A DNA stretch of 64,000 nucleotides from Chryseobacterium taiwanense (GTDB taxonomy: Bacteria > Bacteroidota > Bacteroidia > Flavobacteriales > Weeksellaceae). Below, piece after piece: positions 3,147-25,206 of the stretch. The notes under the pieces are model-generated. The model was not told where the DNA came from. It searched no databases and saw only the letters and a list, made by a program, of their open reading frames with translations. The translations under genes were made by a program, and so were the position numbers. Numbering within the stretch: the stretch's first letter is position 1; every line of letters starts with the position of its first letter. The stretch covers positions 452,091-516,090 of the forward strand of contig NZ_JWTA01000005.1 of the NCBI RefSeq assembly GCF_000813825.1, written 5' to 3'.

Positions 3147-4055
3147 ATGAAAAAGTTTTTCCTAGTCGTTTCTCTCTCTATTTCTACAATTTTATTCTCT
3201 CAACAAACTGATTTTCTAAAGATCAGAAAATACAGAGTGAATTATTTAGAGGCAAAAGTTCAAGAAACATCGGGATTAAGTCTACTGAATGGAAAACTTT
3301 ATACTTTCAATGACAGTGGCAATACTCCTGATCTTTTTGAACTCAATAAAGAGAATGGTGAAGTTGCCCGAGTCCTTAAAACCAACTTAATCAATACCGA
3401 TTGGGAAGCTTTGACAAATGATGGAGAAAACTTTTATATAGGAGACTTTGGGAATAATGCAGGTGCTAGAAAAGACCTTGTCATTTATAAAGTTCCTTAT
3501 GGAAATTTTAATCAGATCAATACCGATAAAGTTTCAGGATCTGAAAGAGCTTTAGATGGTATTTCAATTCCGTTTTTCTATCCCGAACAAACTGATTTTA
3601 CCCCAAAGAATCTAAAAACTGACTTTGATGCAGAAGCAATGATTTATTTGAATGGGAAAATTCATCTGTTTACTAAAGAATGGGCTTCAAAATCAACAAC
3701 ACATTATACTATAGATCCCGAAATTTCAGAAAAACAGGAAGCTAAAAAAATAGAATCTTTCAAGACCGATTTTGTTGTGACGGATGCTGCTTATTTTGAC
3801 AATAAGCTTTATTTAGTAGGTTATACCAAGAAAACAGAAGTCTTCTTAAATATTTTCAAAGAAACAGAGCCGGGAATATTTTTAAAAGAAGATCCAGAGC
3901 ATTATTATTTGGGAACTGCTCTTTCAATCGGGCAGATCGAAGGAGTAGCAGTAGATGAGCTGGGTGTCTATATTTCTGGAGAGAAATTCCATTCTCCTGT
4001 GGGAGGGGCAAAACAAAGCTTATATTTTATTCCAAAAGATAAACTCAAAGATTAA
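3147..4055 (+). CDS. secreted protein, propeller-like, function unknown
   Basis: A 302-residue protein with a signal peptide (MKKFFLVVSLSISTILFSQQ). The mature part has short beta-strand units such as GLSLLNGKLYTFNDSG, NTDWEALTNDGENFYIGDFGNN and IEGVAVDELGVYISGE, the style of a beta-propeller. The conserved W-E-A-L-T and E-G-V-A-V spacing resembles SdiA-regulated or esterase-like phytase-type propellers, but no catalytic set is clear. It has no T9SS tail and no lipobox, so the periplasm is the likely location. It lies alone between a terminator and the polyprenyl synthase promoter. Confidence 0.75.
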   Translation: MKKFFLVVSLSISTILFSQQTDFLKIRKYRVNYLEAKVQETSGLSLLNGKLYTFNDSGNTPDLFELNKENGEVARVLKTNLINTDWEALTNDGENFYIGDFGNNAGARKDLVIYKVPYGNFNQINTDKVSGSERALDGISIPFFYPEQTDFTPKNLKTDFDAEAMIYLNGKIHLFTKEWASKSTTHYTIDPEISEKQEAKKIESFKTDFVVTDAAYFDNKLYLVGYTKKTEVFLNIFKETEPGIFLKEDPEHYYLGTALSIGQIEGVAVDELGVYISGEKFHSPVGGAKQSLYFIPKDKLKD

Positions 4056-4082
4056 TTTCCCTTAAAATTAACTTAAAAAAAT

Positions 4083-4090
4083 TATCTTTG
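4083..4090 (+). promoter_or_regulatory. -7 box (TATCTTTG)
   Basis: Exact TAnnTTTG match 37 bases before the GTG start of the polyprenyl synthetase gene. Confidence 0.5.
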
Positions 4091-14246: not shown

Positions 14247-14765
14247 ATGGAATACGAATTACTAATAGGATGTCAACGGAATGACCGCAATGCACAGCGG
14301 AAGGTTTACGAAAAGATGGCGGGTAAACTTTACTCAGTTTGCAAACGTTACCTGAAAAATGATGAAGATATAGAAGAAGTATTGGCCGATACTTTCTATA
14401 AGATCTTTACGAAACTTAATCAGCTACAAAATCCCGAGATTTTTGAAGCGTGGGCAAAAAAAATTACGGTGAATGAATGTTTACAGAAACTGAGAGCGAT
14501 GAAAGCACTTCATATTTCTCTGGATGAAAACCTGATTGAGTCCTCAGATATTCCTGTAGAAAGTCTTTCTTTCGAAAAAGATATTCTCAAACTACTCAAC
14601 TTTCTTCCGGAAGGTTGCAGAGCGATTTTTAATCTTTTTGCGATTGAAGGATATCCGCACAAGGAAATTGCTACCATGCTTTCAATCAGTGAAGGAACTT
14701 CAAAATCACAGCTGAATTTTGCAAGAAAAAAGCTTCAGGAACTTTTGGTTAATCACAACATTTAA
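14247..14765 (+). CDS. ECF-type RNA polymerase sigma factor
   Basis: A 172-residue sigma-70 factor with only regions 2 and 4. Region 2 includes KRYLKNDEDIEEVLADTFYKIF; region 4 has LPEGCRAIFNLFAIEGYPHKEIATMLSISEGTSKSQLNFARKKLQELL with the usual helix-turn-helix. It directs RNA polymerase to a regulon that probably includes the genes after it. The next gene begins 12 bases later and encodes a membrane-anchored protein whose first 46 residues look like the cytoplasmic tail of an anti-sigma factor. No other anti-sigma gene is present. Confidence 0.93.
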   Translation: MEYELLIGCQRNDRNAQRKVYEKMAGKLYSVCKRYLKNDEDIEEVLADTFYKIFTKLNQLQNPEIFEAWAKKITVNECLQKLRAMKALHISLDENLIESSDIPVESLSFEKDILKLLNFLPEGCRAIFNLFAIEGYPHKEIATMLSISEGTSKSQLNFARKKLQELLVNHNI

Positions 14766-14777
14766 AACTTTACAACA

Positions 14778-17129
14778 ATGGAAAATAATCACGATATCGA
14801 TAAAAAATTCAATGAGGCTTCTAAAGCGGAAGAACCAGCGACTTTTCCTGGTTTTGATAAAGTTTGGGCTCAAGTTGAAGAAAAATTAGAGACAAAAGAA
14901 AATAAAAAAAGGATCATCCCGATCTGGCTTCCTTATGGAGTTGCAGCGAGCTTAATTATTGGATTGGGAGCATTCTATTTTATTAATAAAAATGATGTTT
15001 CGGAAATTCAAAAACCTGCAATTGCTCACAACACGGTTTCTTCTAAAGTGAATTCAAATGTTCAGACAATTGATAGTACGGTAAAGTCTAATATTGAAAA
15101 AGAAGATAATGGTTTAAAAGAGCATCAAAATCAAAAAATATTAGCTTATGAAGATGCAAAAAGATTGTATAATCCTGAATCAGGTTTTGTTTTTGAAGAA
15201 AAACCATTAATAAATCGCATTAAAAATTATAAAATAAAACCAATAGCAATTAATAAAGAAGTTGCTTATGTTCCTGTAGACAGTGGCTACAAAGAAAAAA
15301 ATATTGAAGAAGTTGTAGTGCTTGGATACAGTAAAACAGTAACCAGATATAAATCTGTATCATCAACTTCAACTGTAAGTGGAAATCTTATTGCTAGTAA
15401 TTCATCAAGTGTAGGATTTTTAAATTCTTTAAGTGGAGAAGCTCCAGGGTTATCAATCAGTTCTGGTTCAGGTAGTCCGGGTTCTTCTAAAAACGCTATT
15501 CGTATTCGAGGAGTTGCTTCAATTAAAGAAAGTTCAGAACCTTTATATATTATTAACGGTGAAATCGCAAACGGAGAAAAATTCAAAAAACTAAAACCTG
15601 AGAATATCAAGGAAGTTTCAGTGATAAAAGATGCTGCTGCAACTTCTGTATATGGAAGCAGAGCGGCAAATGGAGTTATTGTAATTTCTACTAAAGATGC
15701 ATCAAAATCAAAAAATAAAAAGTTTGATAAGTTTCTGAAAAAACTTTTCCCAAAAGCAAAAACAGATATTATAGATAAGGCGGAAGAAAAAGAAGAAATA
15801 CTTCCAAAAGCCGGACAACTTACTGCGGGAGAAGCAAATGATTTTTCTAAATGGAATTACTGGATGGATATTGCCGTACCCACTTTGGAAAGATATAAAA
15901 ATGAATGGAAATTTTTCCCTGAAAGAAGAGTATCTGTACAATTGGTTAATAAAAATAAAAAACCAATCGTAGGAGAAAAACTAAAATTAGTTAATGACAA
16001 AAATGAAGTTATCTGGGAAGCCATTACCGATAATCTGGGGAATGCAGAGTTATGGATTGATCCACTTACTAGCTCTGAACAAAAAATTGGGAAATATATT
16101 TTGACAGATCGCTCAAATAATATTATCAGCAATCAGCCTAAAGAATTCAAAAACGGACAAAACCTTATTATTCTTGATAAACCATGTACTGAAAAAAGAG
16201 CTTTAGATCTTGCATTTGTAGTTGATGCAACAGGCTCGATGGGAGATGAAATCGCCTATTTGCAGTCTGAGCTTCTGGACGTTCTTAAAAAAGTTGAATC
16301 TAACCTGAAAAATACTGAGGTAAGATATGGTTCTGTTTTTTACAGAGATCAAGGAGATGAATATGTGACCAAAAAGTTTGATTTTAATGACAATGCCGAT
16401 CAGCTTTTGAAATTTATTAAAGAGCAAAATGCTGCAGGTGGCGGTGATTTTCCTGAAGCTGTAGTTGAAGCAATGGACGTGTCTGTAAATGAACTGAAAT
16501 GGAGCACAGAAAATTCTACCAAAATCATATTTTTAATTCTTGATGCACCGCCACATCAATCGGAAGAAAATATTGACAAGCTTTTTAAATATATAAAAAC
16601 CGCATCTCAGAAAGGAATAACTGTTATTCCTCTATCCGCAAGTGATATTGATAAGCAGACAGAATATCTGATGAGAACTTTTGCTCTAATGACGAACGGG
16701 ACTTACATTTTTCTTACCAACCACAGCGGAATCGGAAACAATCATATTGAACCTACAGTAGAATCTTATGAGGTAGAAAAATTGAATGATCTTCTTCTGA
16801 GACTTATTTTGCAACGCGCAACACTTACCGAATGCAACAAAAATACTTCTCAAAATTATCTGAATAAAAAACTGGAAACAGAAGCAGATGTCAACGCTGA
16901 ACATCAAATCAAATTATTTCCGAATCCTACTAAAGGTTCGGTAAGCATTATTTCAGATTTTCCGATTGATGAACTGTATGTATATGATTTGGCAGGAAAA
17001 ATTATCATGAAAAAGGAAAAACTTTCAGGAAAAAGTATTATTGATATTTCATCTTATCCTCAAAGTGTTTATCTCATCAGAGCCAGAACAGAAAAAGGAT
17101 GGGAAACCTTTAAAGTCATTAAAAACTAA
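14778..17129 (+). CDS. membrane-anchored vWA protein with SusC-type plug and T9SS tail
   Basis: A 783-residue mosaic. Residues 1-46 are a charged cytoplasmic segment (FDKVWAQVEEKLETKENKK) like anti-sigma N-termini; 47-70 form one membrane helix. Residues 176-308 are a TonB-dependent receptor plug of SusC/RagA style: IEEVVVLGYSKTVT, then AIRIRGVASI and AATSVYGSRAANGVIVIS. A small beta domain spans about 380-460. A von Willebrand factor A domain starts near 476 with the metal-binding DATGSMG. The last 73 residues (from IKLFPNPTKG) are a type A T9SS sorting domain. Position after an ECF sigma gene suggests a sensor or anti-sigma role; that is inference. An inner-membrane anchor and a T9SS tail are hard to reconcile in one topology unless the N-terminus is cleaved. 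Confidence 0.85.
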   Translation: MENNHDIDKKFNEASKAEEPATFPGFDKVWAQVEEKLETKENKKRIIPIWLPYGVAASLIIGLGAFYFINKNDVSEIQKPAIAHNTVSSKVNSNVQTIDSTVKSNIEKEDNGLKEHQNQKILAYEDAKRLYNPESGFVFEEKPLINRIKNYKIKPIAINKEVAYVPVDSGYKEKNIEEVVVLGYSKTVTRYKSVSSTSTVSGNLIASNSSSVGFLNSLSGEAPGLSISSGSGSPGSSKNAIRIRGVASIKESSEPLYIINGEIANGEKFKKLKPENIKEVSVIKDAAATSVYGSRAANGVIVISTKDASKSKNKKFDKFLKKLFPKAKTDIIDKAEEKEEILPKAGQLTAGEANDFSKWNYWMDIAVPTLERYKNEWKFFPERRVSVQLVNKNKKPIVGEKLKLVNDKNEVIWEAITDNLGNAELWIDPLTSSEQKIGKYILTDRSNNIISNQPKEFKNGQNLIILDKPCTEKRALDLAFVVDATGSMGDEIAYLQSELLDVLKKVESNLKNTEVRYGSVFYRDQGDEYVTKKFDFNDNADQLLKFIKEQNAAGGGDFPEAVVEAMDVSVNELKWSTENSTKIIFLILDAPPHQSEENIDKLFKYIKTASQKGITVIPLSASDIDKQTEYLMRTFALMTNGTYIFLTNHSGIGNNHIEPTVESYEVEKLNDLLLRLILQRATLTECNKNTSQNYLNKKLETEADVNAEHQIKLFPNPTKGSVSIISDFPIDELYVYDLAGKIIMKKEKLSGKSIIDISSYPQSVYLIRARTEKGWETFKVIKN

Positions 17130-17145
17130 TACAAAAGAAGGTTTC

Positions 17146-17182
17146 AAAAAAAGAAATTTCTCCGGGGATTTCTTTTTTTTCT
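17146..17182 (+). terminator. A/T-rich hairpin with T run inside the operon
   Basis: Twelve-base A/T stem (AAAAAAAGAAAT / ATTTCTTTTTTT) with loop TTCTCCGGGG, followed by T residues. It lies between the vWA gene and the barrel gene and may attenuate transcription. A -7-like box TATTTTTA (17184-17191) follows at once. Confidence 0.55.
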
Positions 17183-17206
17183 CTATTTTTAGAAATATTA
17201 TCAAGG

Positions 17207-19972
17207 ATGAAAAAAGTTTATCTGTTATTGCCTGTATTTGTGGTGCAGTTTGCCTTTGCGCAGGATTCTCAGGGTTATTTTTCGGGAACATTTTATAATG
17301 AAAAAAAGAAACCTCAAAATTTTCTAAAGATTTTTAATAAAAATAAAGGTGTTTATGAACTAACCGATGAGAAAGGCTTTGCGATTATTCAGGCTAATGT
17401 AAGTGATACTTTGGTTTGGAATAACGGAAAAAATATTCAGGTGATTTATAGTGTTTATGAATTAAAAAATATTCTTGAAAGCAGAATAAATAGAAGATAT
17501 GTTGAAAACATCAGTTCTAAAGATTATGACAATCTGATAAAAAAGACTGAAGCAGATGAATTTAGTATTGAGAATTCTTACGATTCTTTAAGACAGAATG
17601 CAGGATATAATATTTCGGATGTCAGAAAATTAAAATTAAAGTCAGATTCTACCTACAAACTCAAAAGTCAGCCGACAAAATATCTTGTTTTTAATGGAAG
17701 TTTCAGCTCATCATTAGATATAAAAAATAGAAACAGAATTCCCAAAACTCAAAACAGATATGTTCAGGGAAGATGTGAAAACGGTTCGTTGGTTTGGAAA
17801 GGTCCTGAAACAGGCGAAATGTTCAGCTTCGGCCCCGATATTTCAACTTTAGGTTACAACGGACAACCTTATGAATATGATAGTAATGGACAATTGGTCA
17901 ATTTATCAAACGGAATTTCTCCTGCAAAATCTTACAATAACAATCTCTTCAAAACGACAGTCGGTTACAGCAATCAGTTGAATGTAAATGCAATCATTAG
18001 AAGTGGCGGTTACAATGAAGATGCACGACTTTTATTAAGTATGGGGCAACAAAAAGACCAGATGTATTTTATAGATCAGTTTGATATTGTAAATTTTTTT
18101 AAAGCTAAATTCAGTACGGAAATTTTAAAATTTAAAATCAATGCAGGATTTAATTATGAAGAAAATAAAGCAACCAATACCAATAGAATAGGGCTTTTCA
18201 ATCGAGCTTATCAGAATTCTCTTCTTACTCCCGTATCATTTTCAAATCAGCAAAATGCTTATCTGAATAATGGTTTGCAGAGAAGTTACAGTTTGTTTGC
18301 GGACAATCCGGAATTTCTTTTTAAGCAGGAAAATAAGTACAATTATTGCGAAAATGTAAGACAGCTTAATTTTGATCTGAGTAGACAATGGAGAGGTTTT
18401 AAATTCAATATTAGTCAGGCTTATGATAATCAGGGTATGATGCATCGAGATGTTTACAAGGTTTCAACAACTGGTTTTCAAAACGGACTTTATAATGTCA
18501 GAAATCAGCAAAATGAATTTTATAATTCAAATATTTCGGCGACTTACGAGTTACAAGGTGGCGATTTAACGAATAAATTCAGTTTAAATCATATTTTAAA
18601 TGATAGAAAAATCAATGTGAGTCATAGTTTAGACAGAAATTATTTTTATCAACGAACTTCACAGGATTATATTTTTAATTATAATTTGGATTACGAAGAT
18701 TATGATGACATCGAATTTGGAGTAAACCTTGGAAACTCATTTTACATCTCAAATACTTCTCTGAAAAACAATTATTGGTTACCAAAAGCAAACAGCTATT
18801 TTACTTTTAAAGACATCTTTGGTTGGAATAATACAGACTTTCAGGTTTTGGGAGCTTACACACAGTTAGCAGCCGAACCTGAGATTTCAAAATCATATTC
18901 TTCGTATGCAACAACTCAGTTTTCTGCTCAGAATGCCCAATTTTATTTTCCTTTAAAAGAGGTTGAAACATTTAAAAATCTTTCGAATATTAATGTGAAA
19001 GAATGGAAAACGGGATTTAAATTTATTATCAACCATAAAATGAATTTGACTGCGGAATACTTTAACCGTAAAATTTCTGACGATGTATTTCCTGTATTTG
19101 AAAATCAGAATTTAGTATTAAAAAATTTAGCAGAACATACTTATGATGGTTATGAAGTTAATTTCAATTATGATAATATTTATCGCAGATACAATTTTGC
19201 TATCGGTAGCAAAGCTTCATTTTTTAAATACCAAGATATTGTGAACCGTGTAAATTCAGGATATAATAATCTGATGATTTCTGGTTTTAATGATATTTAT
19301 AAAACACTATCCGAAGGTCAGGTTTTAGGCGCAGTTGTGGGAAGTTATTATGAAAGAAATGCAGAAGGAAAAGTAGTTATTGATGATAATGGTTATCCAA
19401 TTAAAGCTTCCGGAACGAAAATTATTGCAGATCCAACTCCTGATTTTGTGATAAAATTTTCGCATAACATTACTTATAAAATGTTTGCTTTAGACATCAA
19501 TTGGGAATGGAAAAAAGGCGGACAAGTCTGGAATGGAACTCAGGCTGTTCTCGATTATTACGGTCGTTCTCAAACTTCGGGAGATGAAAGAAATATTAAA
19601 AATTATGTTTTTGAAGGCGTCAATTCTAACGGCAATATCAATCAGATTCCTGTTGATTTTTACAATCCTAATCAGGCAGTAAGTGAAAATCGATGGACGA
19701 GATATGGCTTGCTTGGTGTTGGTGAAAACTATGTGCAAAAATCTGATTACATAAGGATTAATGATATTACACTTTCCGCATATTTTGATATAGGGAATTT
19801 CAGAAGAGCTTTAGGTGTAAGTTTTTATGTAAACAATATTTTCCTTTGGCAGGCAAACAGGGGGGTAGATTCTAATCAGAATTTTTATGATTTTGACGAC
19901 AGCAGAGGTTTGGATTTTTTCAATCTGCCGTCTTTTAAAACCTATGGTTGCACAGTTTCTTTTAAATTTTAA
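17207..19972 (+). CDS. SusC/RagA-type outer-membrane barrel lacking the plug domain
   Basis: A 921-residue protein with signal peptide MKKVYLLLPVFVVQFAFAQ. Residues 23-90 form a small carboxypeptidase-regulatory-like beta domain. From about 150 onward the sequence is a SusC-type barrel: many alternating strands, the late segment GQVLGAVVGSYYERNAEGK, IIADPTPDFVIKFSHNITYK, YIRINDITLSAYF and the closing DFFNLPSFKTYGCTVSFKF. Normal SusC proteins carry a plug between these parts (with an IRG motif and a YGxxxxNGVIxI end). I find no such motif here, although the protein is otherwise intact. Free plug domains are encoded by the genes on both sides. It probably forms an outer-membrane pore; the substrate is unknown and no SusD gene is present. 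Confidence 0.85.
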   Translation: MKKVYLLLPVFVVQFAFAQDSQGYFSGTFYNEKKKPQNFLKIFNKNKGVYELTDEKGFAIIQANVSDTLVWNNGKNIQVIYSVYELKNILESRINRRYVENISSKDYDNLIKKTEADEFSIENSYDSLRQNAGYNISDVRKLKLKSDSTYKLKSQPTKYLVFNGSFSSSLDIKNRNRIPKTQNRYVQGRCENGSLVWKGPETGEMFSFGPDISTLGYNGQPYEYDSNGQLVNLSNGISPAKSYNNNLFKTTVGYSNQLNVNAIIRSGGYNEDARLLLSMGQQKDQMYFIDQFDIVNFFKAKFSTEILKFKINAGFNYEENKATNTNRIGLFNRAYQNSLLTPVSFSNQQNAYLNNGLQRSYSLFADNPEFLFKQENKYNYCENVRQLNFDLSRQWRGFKFNISQAYDNQGMMHRDVYKVSTTGFQNGLYNVRNQQNEFYNSNISATYELQGGDLTNKFSLNHILNDRKINVSHSLDRNYFYQRTSQDYIFNYNLDYEDYDDIEFGVNLGNSFYISNTSLKNNYWLPKANSYFTFKDIFGWNNTDFQVLGAYTQLAAEPEISKSYSSYATTQFSAQNAQFYFPLKEVETFKNLSNINVKEWKTGFKFIINHKMNLTAEYFNRKISDDVFPVFENQNLVLKNLAEHTYDGYEVNFNYDNIYRRYNFAIGSKASFFKYQDIVNRVNSGYNNLMISGFNDIYKTLSEGQVLGAVVGSYYERNAEGKVVIDDNGYPIKASGTKIIADPTPDFVIKFSHNITYKMFALDINWEWKKGGQVWNGTQAVLDYYGRSQTSGDERNIKNYVFEGVNSNGNINQIPVDFYNPNQAVSENRWTRYGLLGVGENYVQKSDYIRINDITLSAYFDIGNFRRALGVSFYVNNIFLWQANRGVDSNQNFYDFDDSRGLDFFNLPSFKTYGCTVSFKF

Positions 19973-20011
19973 TTGAATTTATCCGTAACCAAAAAGTATT
20001 TCAAACTTAAA

Positions 20012-23000
20012 ATGAAACCCATGAAATTCAAATTTTTATACTATATCGTTCTTTTCTTTATTTTGTTTTCAAGTTCGTTTTGTAAAGCACAAAATAAATT
20101 CAATGATTTCAAAAAAGAAAAAACATACGTACAAACCAATCATGTTTTTTACAAGCCTGGAGAGGAAATATATTTTAAAATTTATGTTGTTCAGGCTGAA
20201 AATCAACTTCCAACCGAGCAATCTAAAGTTGTCAATTTTGAACTTGTTGATCCGAGCGGAACTGTAGTGAAAAAATCGAAGTATGAAATTAAAAATGGTC
20301 ATGCAGAAGGCTATTTCTACTTTGGAGATGACATGAAAGGTGGAATTTACAAAGTCAGAGCGTTTACAGCCTGGATGCAGAATGAAGCTGGAAAAAACGT
20401 TTTTGAAAAAGAAATTACGCTTCAGAAAATTGTATCTCCAAGAATTTTAATGAAACTCGATTTCCCTAAAAAAGGCTATGGAGCCGGAGATGAGGTTTTG
20501 GCTGATTTCTCAATGAGAAGTTTAAGCAATCTTCCGATTCCTTATTATGAGGCATATTTTACGGTAATGCATCAAGGTGAAAAAATTACGGAAGGCAATT
20601 TAATTACCGATAAAGAAGGAAAATATCTGCTGAAATTTAAACTTCCTGAAGTTTTGAAATCTTCTGATGCTCTTTTGAATATAAAAGTCAATTTTGATGG
20701 TTTCACGGAATCTATTTCTAGAAATATTCCGATTGTTTTGAATAATCTGGACTTAAAATTTATGCCCGAAGGCGGAACTATGATTAACGGAATCGAGCAA
20801 AATATCGCTTTTAAAGTTTTGGATGAATTTGAAAAACCGGTAGATGCCGTTTTAGGAATTTATAATCAGAATCATCAGAAAATAACGGAGGTTTCAGCTT
20901 ACAATTTCGGAATGGGAAGTTTTTATTTAACTCCAAAAAATAGTGAAACATATTATGTAAAAGTTTTAAAACCGGAAAATATCAGTCAGATTTACCAGCT
21001 TCCTGTTGCAAAAAATGAAGGAATTGTTTTTAATCTAAAAAAGGAAAATCAAGACATCACTTTATTCATCAACTCCACTTCGGAAAGAAACGTTGTAATC
21101 TCTGGTAATTTCCGTGAAAAAGAGATTTATTCTAAAAATTTAAGTGTAAAAAAAGGTTTAAATCAAGTCGAAATCTCAGAAAAAGAACTTCCAATCGGGA
21201 TTTGCAGGTTTACGGTTTCAGAAAATAATATCCCGCTTGCAGAGAGAATTCTTTTCACGAATGAAAATAAGCAGATGAAAGTAAAAGTCACTCTGGTTAA
21301 GAAAAATTATTTACCGAGAGAAAAAGCGGTTGTCAATATCGAAACAACCGATGAAAATAACAAACCAATTCCTGCAAATCTTGCTATAAGTGTTTTTGAT
21401 GATAAATTATGGACGTATGCAGATGATAAACAGAATCATATTCTTTCTTGGTTTTTAATGGATTCAGAATTAAGAGGAAAAATTGAAAGACTACCGTTTT
21501 ATTTTGATAAAAAAGAAGAAAAAGCTACAAAAAGTTTAGATCTAGTCATGCTGACAAACGGTTATCGTTACTTTGAAATGAATCCTGAAGTTGAAAAAAC
21601 AGGAAACTACAAATATCTTCCGGAAAAGAAAAACCCAATCTACGGAATTGTTGAAGATGAAAACAAAAAACCTGTAAAAGCTGAAGTTTATTTAATCGGA
21701 AGCAATTCTAAAATTAAAAAACAGTTGACCTCAGAAAATGGATTGTTTTATTATTCAGATTTAAATAGAAATGAATATTACTCTGTTATTGCTAAATCTG
21801 TAGATAAAAAACAGAAAGTGAATGTAAGAATGCTTTCTTATAAGCTTAATATAAATCCTTTAGCAAAACAGTCTTTAGAAAATATCGATTTGGAAGAGAT
21901 TATTAAAGAAGCGGAGATTAAAGAGAAAAAGTTCTCAATTTCAAATGAAAGAAAAAAATTACCTTCTGTTAATTCAAATTCAGATACAATTTCTAGAAAT
22001 ACACAGATTGAAGAGGTTGTTGTTTTAGGTTATTCAAAAACTGTTACAAAAAAAAACTCAGTAGTTGCATCAAATACGATTACAGATAATTATTTTGAAA
22101 ATAGACCAAATGTTTCTGTTTTAAGTGCTCTGCAAGGTTCTGCACCTGGTGTTATTATGAATTCTGCATCAGGTTCTCCTGGCTCAGCAAAGTTTTCTTT
22201 ACTAATACGTGGTACAAGTTCAATCAGTGGTAATACAGAACCATTGATTATAATAGATAATACACCTTCAAATGCATTTCATTATAGACAGTTGAATCCT
22301 AATGATATTAATACCTTGACAATACTGAAAGATGCGGCCGCAACATCAATTTATGGTAATCGTGGCTCAAATGGAGTTATAATTATTAATACTAAAAAAG
22401 GTAGAAACTCAAATCTAAAAATTAACATCACTCCCAAAAACTATTTTGCTGTAAAAAATATTCCAAATGATAGCTTAGTCAGTTATGAGTATTCACGTCA
22501 GTTTTCTTATCCGGTTTATGAGTCGACAAATACAGCGTACCGACACGATTATCGTGAAGCATTATATTGGAATCCGGTTGTTGAAACCGATAAAAACGGA
22601 AAAGCTCAGATAGAATTCTATCAGTCTGATGCTAATTCAGCGTTTAGAATTATGACGGAAGGTATTTCTTCTTATGGACTTATAGGAAGAGATGAAACTA
22701 CGTATGCAGCTCAAAGCTTGATTTCTATTGATGCTAAAATCCCACAATATTTAACACGAACAGACCAAATGACAATTCCGGTCGTCATTAAAAATAATTC
22801 ACCAGAAACCCGAACTTTAACGATGGATGTCATTGTTCCGAATTATATAAAACTGATGAAAGCTGATAGTACAATTACTTTAAAACCTCTGGAATCGGAA
22901 AGATTATTTGTAACCATGCAGACTGATAAACTGATTAGCTCTAATATTCAATTCGCTGTAAAATCTGGAGAATTTAGAGAAACAATGATTTTACCTTTGA

Positions 23001-24556
23001 AAGTTGAAGAAAAGGGTTTTCCACATCAATTTTCAATCATTAATAATAAAAATGAAAATTTCAAAATCAATATTCCAGAATATATCAACGGAAGTTTGAT
23101 ATCTTCATATTACGTATACGAAAATTCTGCGTTGCAGATGTTTGAAGATTTGGAAAGATTGAAAAGAGAACCTTATGGATGTTTTGAGCAACTTTCTTCA
23201 ACGGTTTATCCCAATATTTTTATTTTGGATTATTTAAAATCAACAAAAAAAATCGATGTAAATACTGAATCTAACGTTATCCGAAATATGAAAAAAGGAT
23301 ATCAAAAAATGTTATCCTACAAAAATAAAGATGGCGGTTTTTCCTATTTTGGAGGAAACGAATCCGATGTTGCACTTTCTGCATTTGCTTTACTGGAATT
23401 TAAAGATTTGAAAAAATATGTGAATGTAGACCCAAAATTAATTCAGAATTTAAGCGCATTTATTTTATCTAAAAAAAATGCAAACGGACTTTTTGAAGTA
23501 AGAAAAAACTATGAAATGAGAGCCAATTATTCCGAATATTCATGGTCAAGAAATATGTATGTTTTGTATGTGCTTTCTAAAATTGGTTTTAAAAACGAAT
23601 TGCTTCAAAACTATGACTACAGCTTAAAAAGAGTTTTAGTGACAAAAGATTCTTATCAATTGTCTTTGATGGCAAATACCGCAAAAAATCTTGAGAAAAT
23701 TGAAGATTACAATAATTTAGTTTCGATTCTTAACGAACAATATTCCGGGAAAAATATTAAAACGAAAGCAACTTTTACAGGTTCTAGTGGAATTTCCGCC
23801 AATGCAGAAACGCTTTCACTTTACATAATGGCTTTGCAAAAAAATGAATCTTCAAATCAATTGAAAATCGCTGAGGTTGCTGATGAATTAATCAATTACA
23901 ATGGGTATTACGGTTTTGGTTCCACTCAGGCAACAGCTTTAGCTCTGGAAACATTATCCAACTTCTTTGCAAAAAATGAGAAGCTGTATGGAACTGATAA
24001 ACCTACAATTAAAGTAAATAATGTCGCCGTTTTAGATAAAAATAACAGTTTTGCTTCGGCTTTCAGAAAAGGAGAAAATGATGTGACAGTTGAATATTTA
24101 CATAAAAAAGGTTTACCGTATAAATTAGATTATCAGTATTACACTTTAGAAGCTCCTAAAAGTGAAAATATCTCTGTTAGATTGGAAACGAAATTAAAAT
24201 CTCAATCCTCAAAAGTAGGAGAGACAAACCGATTGACTGTTACTGTTAAAAATACGGTTAATGCACAATTACCTATGACAACCGTAAAAATCGGAATTCC
24301 TGCTGGTTTAACTTTACAAAATGCGTTGTTAAAAGATATGGTCGACAAAAAGCAGGTTTCTTATTATGAAATTTTCGATAATTATCTAGTCTTGTATTGG
24401 GAACATTTTGACGCTAATGAAACGAAAACCATTAATCTTGATCTAAAAGTTGAATTTGCCGGTGAATACACAGGAAAGGCGAGTAATGTTTATCTCTATT
24501 ATATGCCTGAAGCTAAGTTTTGGAATGAGGGAATTAAAGCGTTAATAAATCCGTGA
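20012..24556 (+). CDS. alpha-2-macroglobulin-like protein with embedded TonB plug domain
   Basis: About 1514 residues. The frame opens at a TTG at 19973, but the ATG at 20012 gives a proper signal peptide (MKPMKFKFLYYIVLFFILFS). Macroglobulin-type beta domains fill residues 30-600 (KTYVQTNHVFYKPGEEIYFK, LDLKFMPEGGTMINGIEQ). A complete SusC-style plug lies at about 666-797 (IEEVVVLGYSKTVT, LLIRGTSSI, AATSIYGNRGSNGVIIIN). Then come the A2M bait-side domain (LYWNPVVETDKNGKAQIEF) and an alpha-toroid thioester domain with GCFEQ, Cys1057 and Gln1060 in the CxEQ spacing needed for the thioester. Bacterial macroglobulins trap proteases in the periplasm; a plug inside one is unusual. It follows the plug-less barrel gene by 39 bases. 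Confidence 0.87.
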   Translation: MKPMKFKFLYYIVLFFILFSSSFCKAQNKFNDFKKEKTYVQTNHVFYKPGEEIYFKIYVVQAENQLPTEQSKVVNFELVDPSGTVVKKSKYEIKNGHAEGYFYFGDDMKGGIYKVRAFTAWMQNEAGKNVFEKEITLQKIVSPRILMKLDFPKKGYGAGDEVLADFSMRSLSNLPIPYYEAYFTVMHQGEKITEGNLITDKEGKYLLKFKLPEVLKSSDALLNIKVNFDGFTESISRNIPIVLNNLDLKFMPEGGTMINGIEQNIAFKVLDEFEKPVDAVLGIYNQNHQKITEVSAYNFGMGSFYLTPKNSETYYVKVLKPENISQIYQLPVAKNEGIVFNLKKENQDITLFINSTSERNVVISGNFREKEIYSKNLSVKKGLNQVEISEKELPIGICRFTVSENNIPLAERILFTNENKQMKVKVTLVKKNYLPREKAVVNIETTDENNKPIPANLAISVFDDKLWTYADDKQNHILSWFLMDSELRGKIERLPFYFDKKEEKATKSLDLVMLTNGYRYFEMNPEVEKTGNYKYLPEKKNPIYGIVEDENKKPVKAEVYLIGSNSKIKKQLTSENGLFYYSDLNRNEYYSVIAKSVDKKQKVNVRMLSYKLNINPLAKQSLENIDLEEIIKEAEIKEKKFSISNERKKLPSVNSNSDTISRNTQIEEVVVLGYSKTVTKKNSVVASNTITDNYFENRPNVSVLSALQGSAPGVIMNSASGSPGSAKFSLLIRGTSSISGNTEPLIIIDNTPSNAFHYRQLNPNDINTLTILKDAAATSIYGNRGSNGVIIINTKKGRNSNLKINITPKNYFAVKNIPNDSLVSYEYSRQFSYPVYESTNTAYRHDYREALYWNPVVETDKNGKAQIEFYQSDANSAFRIMTEGISSYGLIGRDETTYAAQSLISIDAKIPQYLTRTDQMTIPVVIKNNSPETRTLTMDVIVPNYIKLMKADSTITLKPLESERLFVTMQTDKLISSNIQFAVKSGEFRETMILPLKVEEKGFPHQFSIINNKNENFKINIPEYINGSLISSYYVYENSALQMFEDLERLKREPYGCFEQLSSTVYPNIFILDYLKSTKKIDVNTESNVIRNMKKGYQKMLSYKNKDGGFSYFGGNESDVALSAFALLEFKDLKKYVNVDPKLIQNLSAFILSKKNANGLFEVRKNYEMRANYSEYSWSRNMYVLYVLSKIGFKNELLQNYDYSLKRVLVTKDSYQLSLMANTAKNLEKIEDYNNLVSILNEQYSGKNIKTKATFTGSSGISANAETLSLYIMALQKNESSNQLKIAEVADELINYNGYYGFGSTQATALALETLSNFFAKNEKLYGTDKPTIKVNNVAVLDKNNSFASAFRKGENDVTVEYLHKKGLPYKLDYQYYTLEAPKSENISVRLETKLKSQSSKVGETNRLTVTVKNTVNAQLPMTTVKIGIPAGLTLQNALLKDMVDKKQVSYYEIFDNYLVLYWEHFDANETKTINLDLKVEFAGEYTGKASNVYLYYMPEAKFWNEGIKALINP

Positions 24557-24705: not shown

Positions 24706-25206
24706 ATGCAACTTTCAGAAGCAAAAGAAAAGTATATTCAGACTTGGGGAACTTTGGCGACAAATTGGGGGATTAACCGTACCATGGCGCAGGTTCACGC
24801 TTTACTTTTGGCGGAAGGGAAGCCTCTTTCTACTGATGAGGTGATGGAAATGCTTGCAATTTCAAGAGGAAATGCCAATATGAATCTCCGAAACTTAATG
24901 GATTGGGGACTGGTACGAAAGGAATTGATGAAAGGAGACCGAAAAGAATATTTTTTTGCAGAAAGAGATATGTGGTATCTATTCAAACAGTTGGTAAAAG
25001 AACGTAAGAAAAGAGAGATCGAACCCGTTTTAAATTCAATCTCCGAATTAAAAAATGTAGATGAAAACACCGAAGAAGCTCAAAGATTTACCGCTTTAAT
25101 GGAGGAAATGGAAAATGTGACGGGAAAAGTATTCAACATTATGGATCTGGCAATTAAGAGTGATGATCACTGGTTGGTCGGAAAGATCACTAACTTATTA
25201 AAATAG
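24706..25206 (+). CDS. GbsR/MarR family transcriptional regulator
   Basis: A 166-residue winged-helix protein of the GbsR branch. The segment WGINRTMAQVHALLLAEGKPLSTDEVMEMLAISRGNANMNLRNLMDWGLVRK covers helices and wing; the C-terminal part is a helical dimerisation region. GbsR-type proteins mostly repress membrane or osmolyte genes. The upstream palindrome sits on its own -33 element, which suggests autorepression. Two similar palindromes in front of later genes of the block (25242, 26901) suggest that those are its targets. A weak hairpin (25207-25226) after its stop may partly separate it from the next gene. Confidence 0.92.
   Translation: MQLSEAKEKYIQTWGTLATNWGINRTMAQVHALLLAEGKPLSTDEVMEMLAISRGNANMNLRNLMDWGLVRKELMKGDRKEYFFAERDMWYLFKQLVKERKKREIEPVLNSISELKNVDENTEEAQRFTALMEEMENVTGKVFNIMDLAIKSDDHWLVGKITNLLK

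Follow-up and report, generated by a model that had tools for sequence, protein, structure and literature searches.

The four genes of the locus

The window analysed here is a stretch of 64,000 nucleotides from Chryseobacterium taiwanense (contig NZ_JWTA01000005.1, positions 452,091 to 516,090), and its subject is a locus of four co-directional open frames on the plus strand, in which a SusC-type outer-membrane barrel protein without a plug domain lies next to an alpha-2-macroglobulin (A2M)-type protein that carries one. A first-pass annotation, made from the letters alone, had placed an extracytoplasmic function (ECF) sigma factor at the head of the operon, and matches to the Pfam families Sigma70_r2 and r4_2 in the first gene (14247..14765) bear this out. 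The second gene (gene 2, 14778..17129) encodes a head with one transmembrane segment, a TonB box, a SusC-type plug, a vWA domain and a type A sorting domain of the type IX secretion system (T9SS). Its plug (residues 192-300, 15351..15677) matches PF07715 at 1.7e-11 and 45 bits and TIGR04056 at model positions 75-210; vWA and the T9SS Por_Secre_tail domain were also matched, the latter by PF18962 (4.4e-8) and TIGR04183 (1.9e-11). The box is the string EEVVV (residues 177-181, 15306..15320), found from the sequence and an alignment, and the same string stands in the A2M; we take both to be TonB boxes. The first-pass description of gene 2 as a plug fused to vWA was right for those two domains and incomplete for the rest, since the protein also has the head and transmembrane segment, and its C-terminal part differs from one species to another.

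Gene three (17207..19972) encodes the barrel protein, with a signal peptide and a short N-terminal beta domain ahead of the barrel portion (residues 165-921, 17699..19969, from the TIGR04056 match). It is followed by the A2M (19973..24556), which probably begins at the ATG at 20021, as judged by eye against orthologues. The A2M has Pfam matches to MG2, Plug, A2M, TED and bMG10 and is the genome's only TED-domain match (PF07678, 3.4e-26), with a CxEQ-type thioester motif, CFEQ within PYGCFEQ (23180..23191), that is invariant across 10 rows of the A2M alignment. Its TonB box (residues 680-684, 22010..22024) and its plug (residues 693-802, 22049..22378; PF07715 at 6.3e-13 and 49.6 bits, TIGR04056 at 75-243) stand directly before the PF00207 domain (864-950). 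SusD is absent among the four genes, the direct neighbours of the barrel being gene 2 and the A2M; no FecR or STN domain was found in the four proteins, and gene 2 has no anti-sigma Pfam match at E<=1. A defence-system reading was dropped after a PADLOC scan matched none of the four.

The barrel matches TIGR04056 only at model positions 214-981, with 51.6-52.6 bits against a curated cut-off of 368.25, and has no Pfam match at E<=1. The plug stretch of the model, unmatched in the barrel, is covered by its neighbours, by gene 2 at 75-210 and by the A2M at 75-245, which confirms the first-pass observation of a plug-less barrel between two plug-carrying genes. A plug hidden in the barrel was sought with Pfam and TIGR04056 and found neither there nor in any of the 50 barrels of its family described below, and we reject the hidden-plug reading. 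In other barrels of the family the best TIGR04056 match begins at 208 (L108), 214 (L127 and L011) or 279 (L128), with a partial best stretch of 634-980 in L107 and no match in L042. Across the whole genome 15 proteins exceed the TIGR04056 cut-off and span the model from 1-75 to 980-981, and the window barrel is the sole barrel-only SusC; plug-only matches at E<=1e-21 number three, two of which flank the barrel, with the weaker partial matches lying in other frames. A chance arrangement is unlikely because the one barrel-only SusC of the genome is flanked by two of its three plug-only matches. The third such match (L185:4336-5052, contig C11 of the same genome) is a protein of 238 amino acids with a Cys-rich head, a transmembrane-like segment, a TonB box and a plug, and no barrel was seen among the frames listed around it.

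The barrel does not appear to be a relic. The ratio of nonsynonymous to synonymous substitution (dN/dS) is 0.09-0.10 against three relatives, indicating purifying selection, and with this value of about 0.09 and barrel profile matches in 50/50 loci we reject the reading of a decayed SusC. Predicted structures of two barrel homologues match solved SusC barrels, which shows a barrel fold of the SusC type. The closest named relative of the barrel, from C. echinoideorum, is 88% identical.

Conservation and loss of the barrel and the macroglobulin

A search with the barrel returned 43 Chryseobacterium and three Chitinophagaceae loci, to which four were added later to make a set of 50: L107, L108 and L127, from a family of the window's order (f3, probably Flavobacteriaceae), and L128, from another genus of Weeksellaceae. 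In all 50 loci, and so across three families, a barrel without a plug stands beside an A2M with a SusC-type plug. The two frames are adjacent in 49 of them, the A2M frame being broken in L026, and 30/30 shorter loci likewise have a plug-less barrel and an A2M. The co-occurrence that the first-pass annotation had proposed to look for is thus conserved for the A2M-borne plug in Weeksellaceae, Chitinophagaceae and f3. Its four-gene arrangement recurs in part: a sigma gene lies near the barrel in 46/50 loci (divergent in L108) and all four types of gene are present in 45/50, if the half-plug of L128 and a two-half-plug protein of L107 are counted as the second plug bearer, while three Chitinophagaceae loci and L127 have the barrel and A2M without sigma or gene 2. 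The L107 protein (3605-4090) has 162 amino acids and a signal-like N-terminus and is encoded with a sigma/anti-sigma-like pair on one side and the barrel on the other.

From the other side, a profile of the part of the A2M that follows the plug matched 19/346 genomes of the order, 37/217 of the class and 9/395 of the phylum. All 19 matches in the order adjoin a barrel (the window, four, eight, and six in 5.8-kb loci); the six 5.8-kb loci do not reach the plug, which in G002 was seen separately. Outside the order, 39 loci with A2M relatives were read, namely 34 of 35 further class matches (G786 was excluded as a fragment from the end of a contig) and five phylum matches. These showed no SusC-type plug and no barrel by profile; L156, with 197 bases upstream, could not be judged, and L139, L146 and L153 have upstream stretches of 1.1-2.9 kb. 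When the A2M segment that includes the plug was used to search the phylum, matches to ordinary SusC plugs swamped the result. In a tree of 58 A2Ms, in which the window and 10 of the 43 genus loci were kept, those with a SusC-type plug form one clade with one change (SH-aLRT support 94). As read from this tree, the linkage is one old event retained across three families and not a repeated gain.

Loss within the genus points to the same unit. Among 70 genus genomes, with at most seven barrel candidates scored in each, the barrel is full in 34, a fragment in three (G001, G003 and G062, the last a fragmentary genome, 75% complete) and absent from 33. The A2M is missing from 31 of these 33; G012 has a C-terminal remnant and G021 an A2M truncated where the contig begins. 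Barrel and A2M were deleted together in G001 and G012, where sigma and gene 2 are retained, and G001 keeps remnants of both lost genes. Sigma and a plug-bearing gene 2 are kept in 28 of the 33 barrel-less genomes. Because gene 2 and sigma survive without the barrel, and the pair occurs without them, barrel and A2M are the core of the system and sigma with gene 2 a separable module. The first-pass suggestion that the plug of gene 2 serves the barrel and feeds back to sigma is not borne out by this pattern, and a gene-2 plug dedicated to the window barrel is rejected as stated. In G003 (L186) an inserted reading frame of 295 amino acids splits the barrel, and its neighbours, the A2M and gene 2, have open frames.

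Gene 2 is itself variable. In some species it ends in a YfbK-type vWA part and in others directly after the plug, and a sorting domain, judged from the appearance of the C-terminus, is present in 16/43 genus loci. A TonB-box-like string was found in 15/15 forms with a sorting domain, in 12/16 YfbK forms and in 3/11 plug-only forms (the broken L026 excluded), and the idea that all plug-only forms have lost the box was therefore rejected. Place and topology suggest that gene 2 may have an anti-sigma role. We regard it as a separable, sigma-linked envelope protein whose plug may use the barrel where one is present, without needing it; a loop that senses through sigma is possible, though it is not the reading we favour. 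The transmembrane head of gene 2 in the window (14778-17129) and its T9SS sorting domain are hard to reconcile within one topology. Separate vWA proteins with a lipoprotein-like N-terminus lie between gene 2 and the barrel or ahead of the barrel at L022:7955-9934, L041:7955-9934 and L127:4167-5297.

The plug cassette of the macroglobulin

At the site of the plug, ten stretches from plug-less A2M relatives mostly contain a long linker of low complexity together with a carboxypeptidase-like domain, a position at which we presume the protease bait region to lie. The TonB box and plug of the window A2M would thus occupy the place of the linker, where the bait region is expected. Read by eye, the A2Ms of the 50 loci (48, plus L127 and L128) all have a string resembling a TonB box ahead of the plug. 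The plug nearest to that of the window A2M belongs to an ordinary SusC encoded in the same genome (G000:C1:150304, L180), with 74% amino acid identity and 73% DNA identity over 395 bp, and in a tree the A2M plug groups with it and with two orthologues (SH-aLRT 99). Compared with its closest orthologue, the window A2M is 58% identical in the plug and about 90% in the remainder. These values indicate that a plug cassette was exchanged between a SusC and the A2M, and hence that the two plugs are alike; because its kinship to a SusC plug, at 74%, exceeds the 58% to its own orthologue, plugs seem to pass between SusC and A2M as interchangeable parts. In 62 close pairs conservation of the A2M plug (median 77%) is lower than that of the part that follows it (89%).

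Other parts of the TonB system were found at the same site in A2M relatives. When the 39 relatives outside the order were scanned with Pfam over the stretch that leads up to the PF00207-type domain, a carboxypeptidase-like domain was found in 32/39, a plug of another type in 1/39 (L158) and a TonB C-terminal domain in 2/39. The last two (L164:5087-6289 and L165:5039-6241, minus strand; PF03544 at 3.4e-12 and 3.8e-11) are neighbours in the tree. The inserts of L158, L164 and L165 imply that TonB-system parts entered the A2M site more than once, which supports a TonB-linked role of this A2M clade. The statement that none of the 39 relatives has a plug holds for the SusC-plug profile and was given up in its general form, since Pfam finds the other plug in L158.

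Proposed plugging in trans and its alternatives

We propose that the plug of the A2M seats in trans in the adjacent plug-less SusC-type barrel and so tethers the protease trap; from the sequences we judge this reading to have an even chance. In Chryseobacterium and some of its relatives this would be a naturally split TonB-dependent transporter. The A2M plug would likely enter the barrel from a separate chain and close the pore, and the trap would be tethered at the inner face of the outer membrane. TonB, probably able to reach the box of the A2M, could pull the plug, and cutting or pulling at the cassette would release the trap or open the pore. We favour this reading because complementary domains lie in one operon, the pairing is exclusive and conserved and the plug stands at the expected bait site, because a TonB box precedes the A2M plugs, the barrel is under purifying selection and the A2M plug is kin to a SusC plug, and because TonB parts re-entered the same site elsewhere, a laboratory precedent exists in FpvAI and a read-through model superposes on known structures. 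Of the first-pass idea that plugs supplied in trans gate the barrel and feed back to the sigma factor, the conserved pairing of a plug-less barrel with an A2M plug speaks for the former part, while the service of the gene-2 plug and the feedback to sigma found no such backing.

The read-through AlphaFold model combines a barrel of the family with a gene-2 plug, and 47 of the 50 structures listed superpose on it from model residue 1-17 to 1159; the remaining three are shorter chains, superposed from 210-213. The model is compatible with a seated plug, the plug being that of gene 2 and predicted with low confidence.

Several observations weigh against the A2M plug being seated in the barrel. In the plug part of the model pLDDT stays below 31 over residues 1-50, lies at 40-52 over 51-90 and reaches 53-78 over 91-160, pTM is 0.59 without an interface score, the aligned ranges start in the unreliable part and the aligned length rises only by tens of residues; the modelled plug is from gene 2 and not from the A2M, and AlphaFold knows plugged barrels. 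An earlier model, with misaligned plug rows, left the plug unfolded and says nothing on it. The pairing arose once on the tree, and adjacent genes are easily deleted together. In G003 the A2M frame is open with its plug, though the barrel is interrupted, and the A2M plug evolves fast (dN/dS 0.21-0.39). A same-clade A2M, L158 (8883-10085), carries the plug of another type (27.7 bits, cut-off 23.9) where the window A2M has its own, and neither the profile nor the listed frames showed a barrel in its stretch. Twelve shorter macroglobulin-like proteins (L110-L121, 822-1225 amino acids) carry a plug, have a stub of the domain that follows and lack TED, and no barrel of the window family was seen near them, the profile of that family being the only one searched. 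L158 and these twelve proteins mean that a plug in a macroglobulin-like protein needs no dedicated barrel, and L158, as a plug at the A2M site that can exist without one, led us to lower our estimate for the favoured reading from slightly better than even to even.

The same cases would fit a free plug that works outside the barrel, as a module for docking to TonB or for periplasmic interaction, with the barrel closed otherwise or serving as an open or ligand-gated channel. Plug proteins without a barrel of the window family (L158, L110-L121, L185, and gene 2 in 28/33 barrel-less genus genomes) speak for such a module, as do the TonB C-terminal domains at the A2M site of L164 and L165, by which contact with the TonB system, and not plugging itself, may be what is selected. 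We nevertheless consider it somewhat unlikely, given that in readable loci the SusC-type A2M plug was never seen without a barrel, apart from the interrupted one of G003, that the barrel was never seen without that A2M in the 50 and 30 loci, and that no other SusC of the genome is barrel-only. The plugs of the A2M and gene 2 might instead compete for the barrel, proteolysis of the A2M plug letting gene 2 dock, be cut and free sigma. The joint presence of sigma, second plug protein, barrel and A2M in 45/50 loci speaks for such a switch, yet gene 2 persists in 28/33 barrel-less genomes, five loci have barrel and A2M without gene 2, and a TonB-box-like string is missing from 8/11 plug-only gene-2 forms, which together make it improbable. 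That the barrel serves to export or display the A2M or a vWA protein, with the plug as a handle, seems to us very improbable, as a folded A2M of about 1500 residues would appear too large for the barrel; the T9SS sorting domain of the window gene 2 and the recurrence of vWA proteins beside the barrel lean towards export, for which the available part of PMC6434023 offers an analogy in a TonB-dependent transporter required for PopC secretion in Myxococcus.

A bolder form of the trans-plug reading would make the protease trap the cork of a pore: a plug moved into the bait site could be pulled by TonB, a protease attacking the bait would uncork the barrel, and the sigma-linked plug protein could take the vacant seat and report it. 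The traps of this A2M clade would more widely be wired to the TonB system through a single site, whether by a SusC plug, a plug of another type or a TonB C-terminal domain. We hold this to be unlikely as a whole.

The proposed system resembles several known ones in part. A barrel capped by a separate protein exists in the T9SS, where SprA is capped by Plug or PorV, and an artificially split TonB-dependent transporter, FhuA, was reportedly reconstituted by Braun in 2003. SusC/RagA transporters (TIGR04056) are alike in the barrel (model 214-981) and plug (75-245) matches, whereas here the plug and the TonB box belong to other chains, the barrel scores far below the cut-off and none of the four genes encodes a SusD. 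As in other bacterial alpha-2-macroglobulins, MG2, A2M, TED with the thioester motif and bMG10 are present in the window A2M; unlike them, it has a TonB box and plug in place of its relatives' linker. For the artificially split FpvAI, the accessible part of the source describes a soluble plug that restores a plug-less barrel in trans (PMC10994204), so that action of a plug in trans has a precedent in a laboratory construct, whereas the split in the window, which we know from sequence, would be natural and its plug is built into another protein. A separate protein also enters a barrel in Bacteroidota where the BamP loop lies in the BamA barrel (PMC12611786, in the part available), the barrels and caps being unrelated to those of the window. 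Surface signalling of the FecA/FecR type, as the available portion of PMC9249621 presents it, likewise has an ECF sigma gene by a membrane-anchored protein and a barrel of the TonB-dependent type, but no FecR or STN match occurs in the four proteins of the window, and their sigma unit survives without the barrel. A description of a barrel and A2M-plug system of this kind was not found in the open-licence literature searched, subscription papers lying outside the search.

If plugging in trans by the A2M is correct, natural TonB-dependent transporters need not hold plug and barrel in one chain, and the plug is a gate that can be exchanged and borne by other proteins of the envelope. Protease defence would be tied to an outer-membrane pore, and there would be a natural system in which exit of the plug is the dissociation of two proteins and can thus be followed.

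Some smaller observations concern the barrel and its surroundings. The N-terminal 70 residues of the barrel protein (17207-17420) weakly match the BamP family, with 23.6 bits against a cut-off of 230. An alignment of the barrel with 18 TonB-dependent proteins of the genome has about ten shared positions, including G648-x-E650; being unsure, it was left unused. Downstream of the A2M, a TrmB/MarR-type regulator is encoded at 24706-25206, and a relative of it is present in 42/50 loci.
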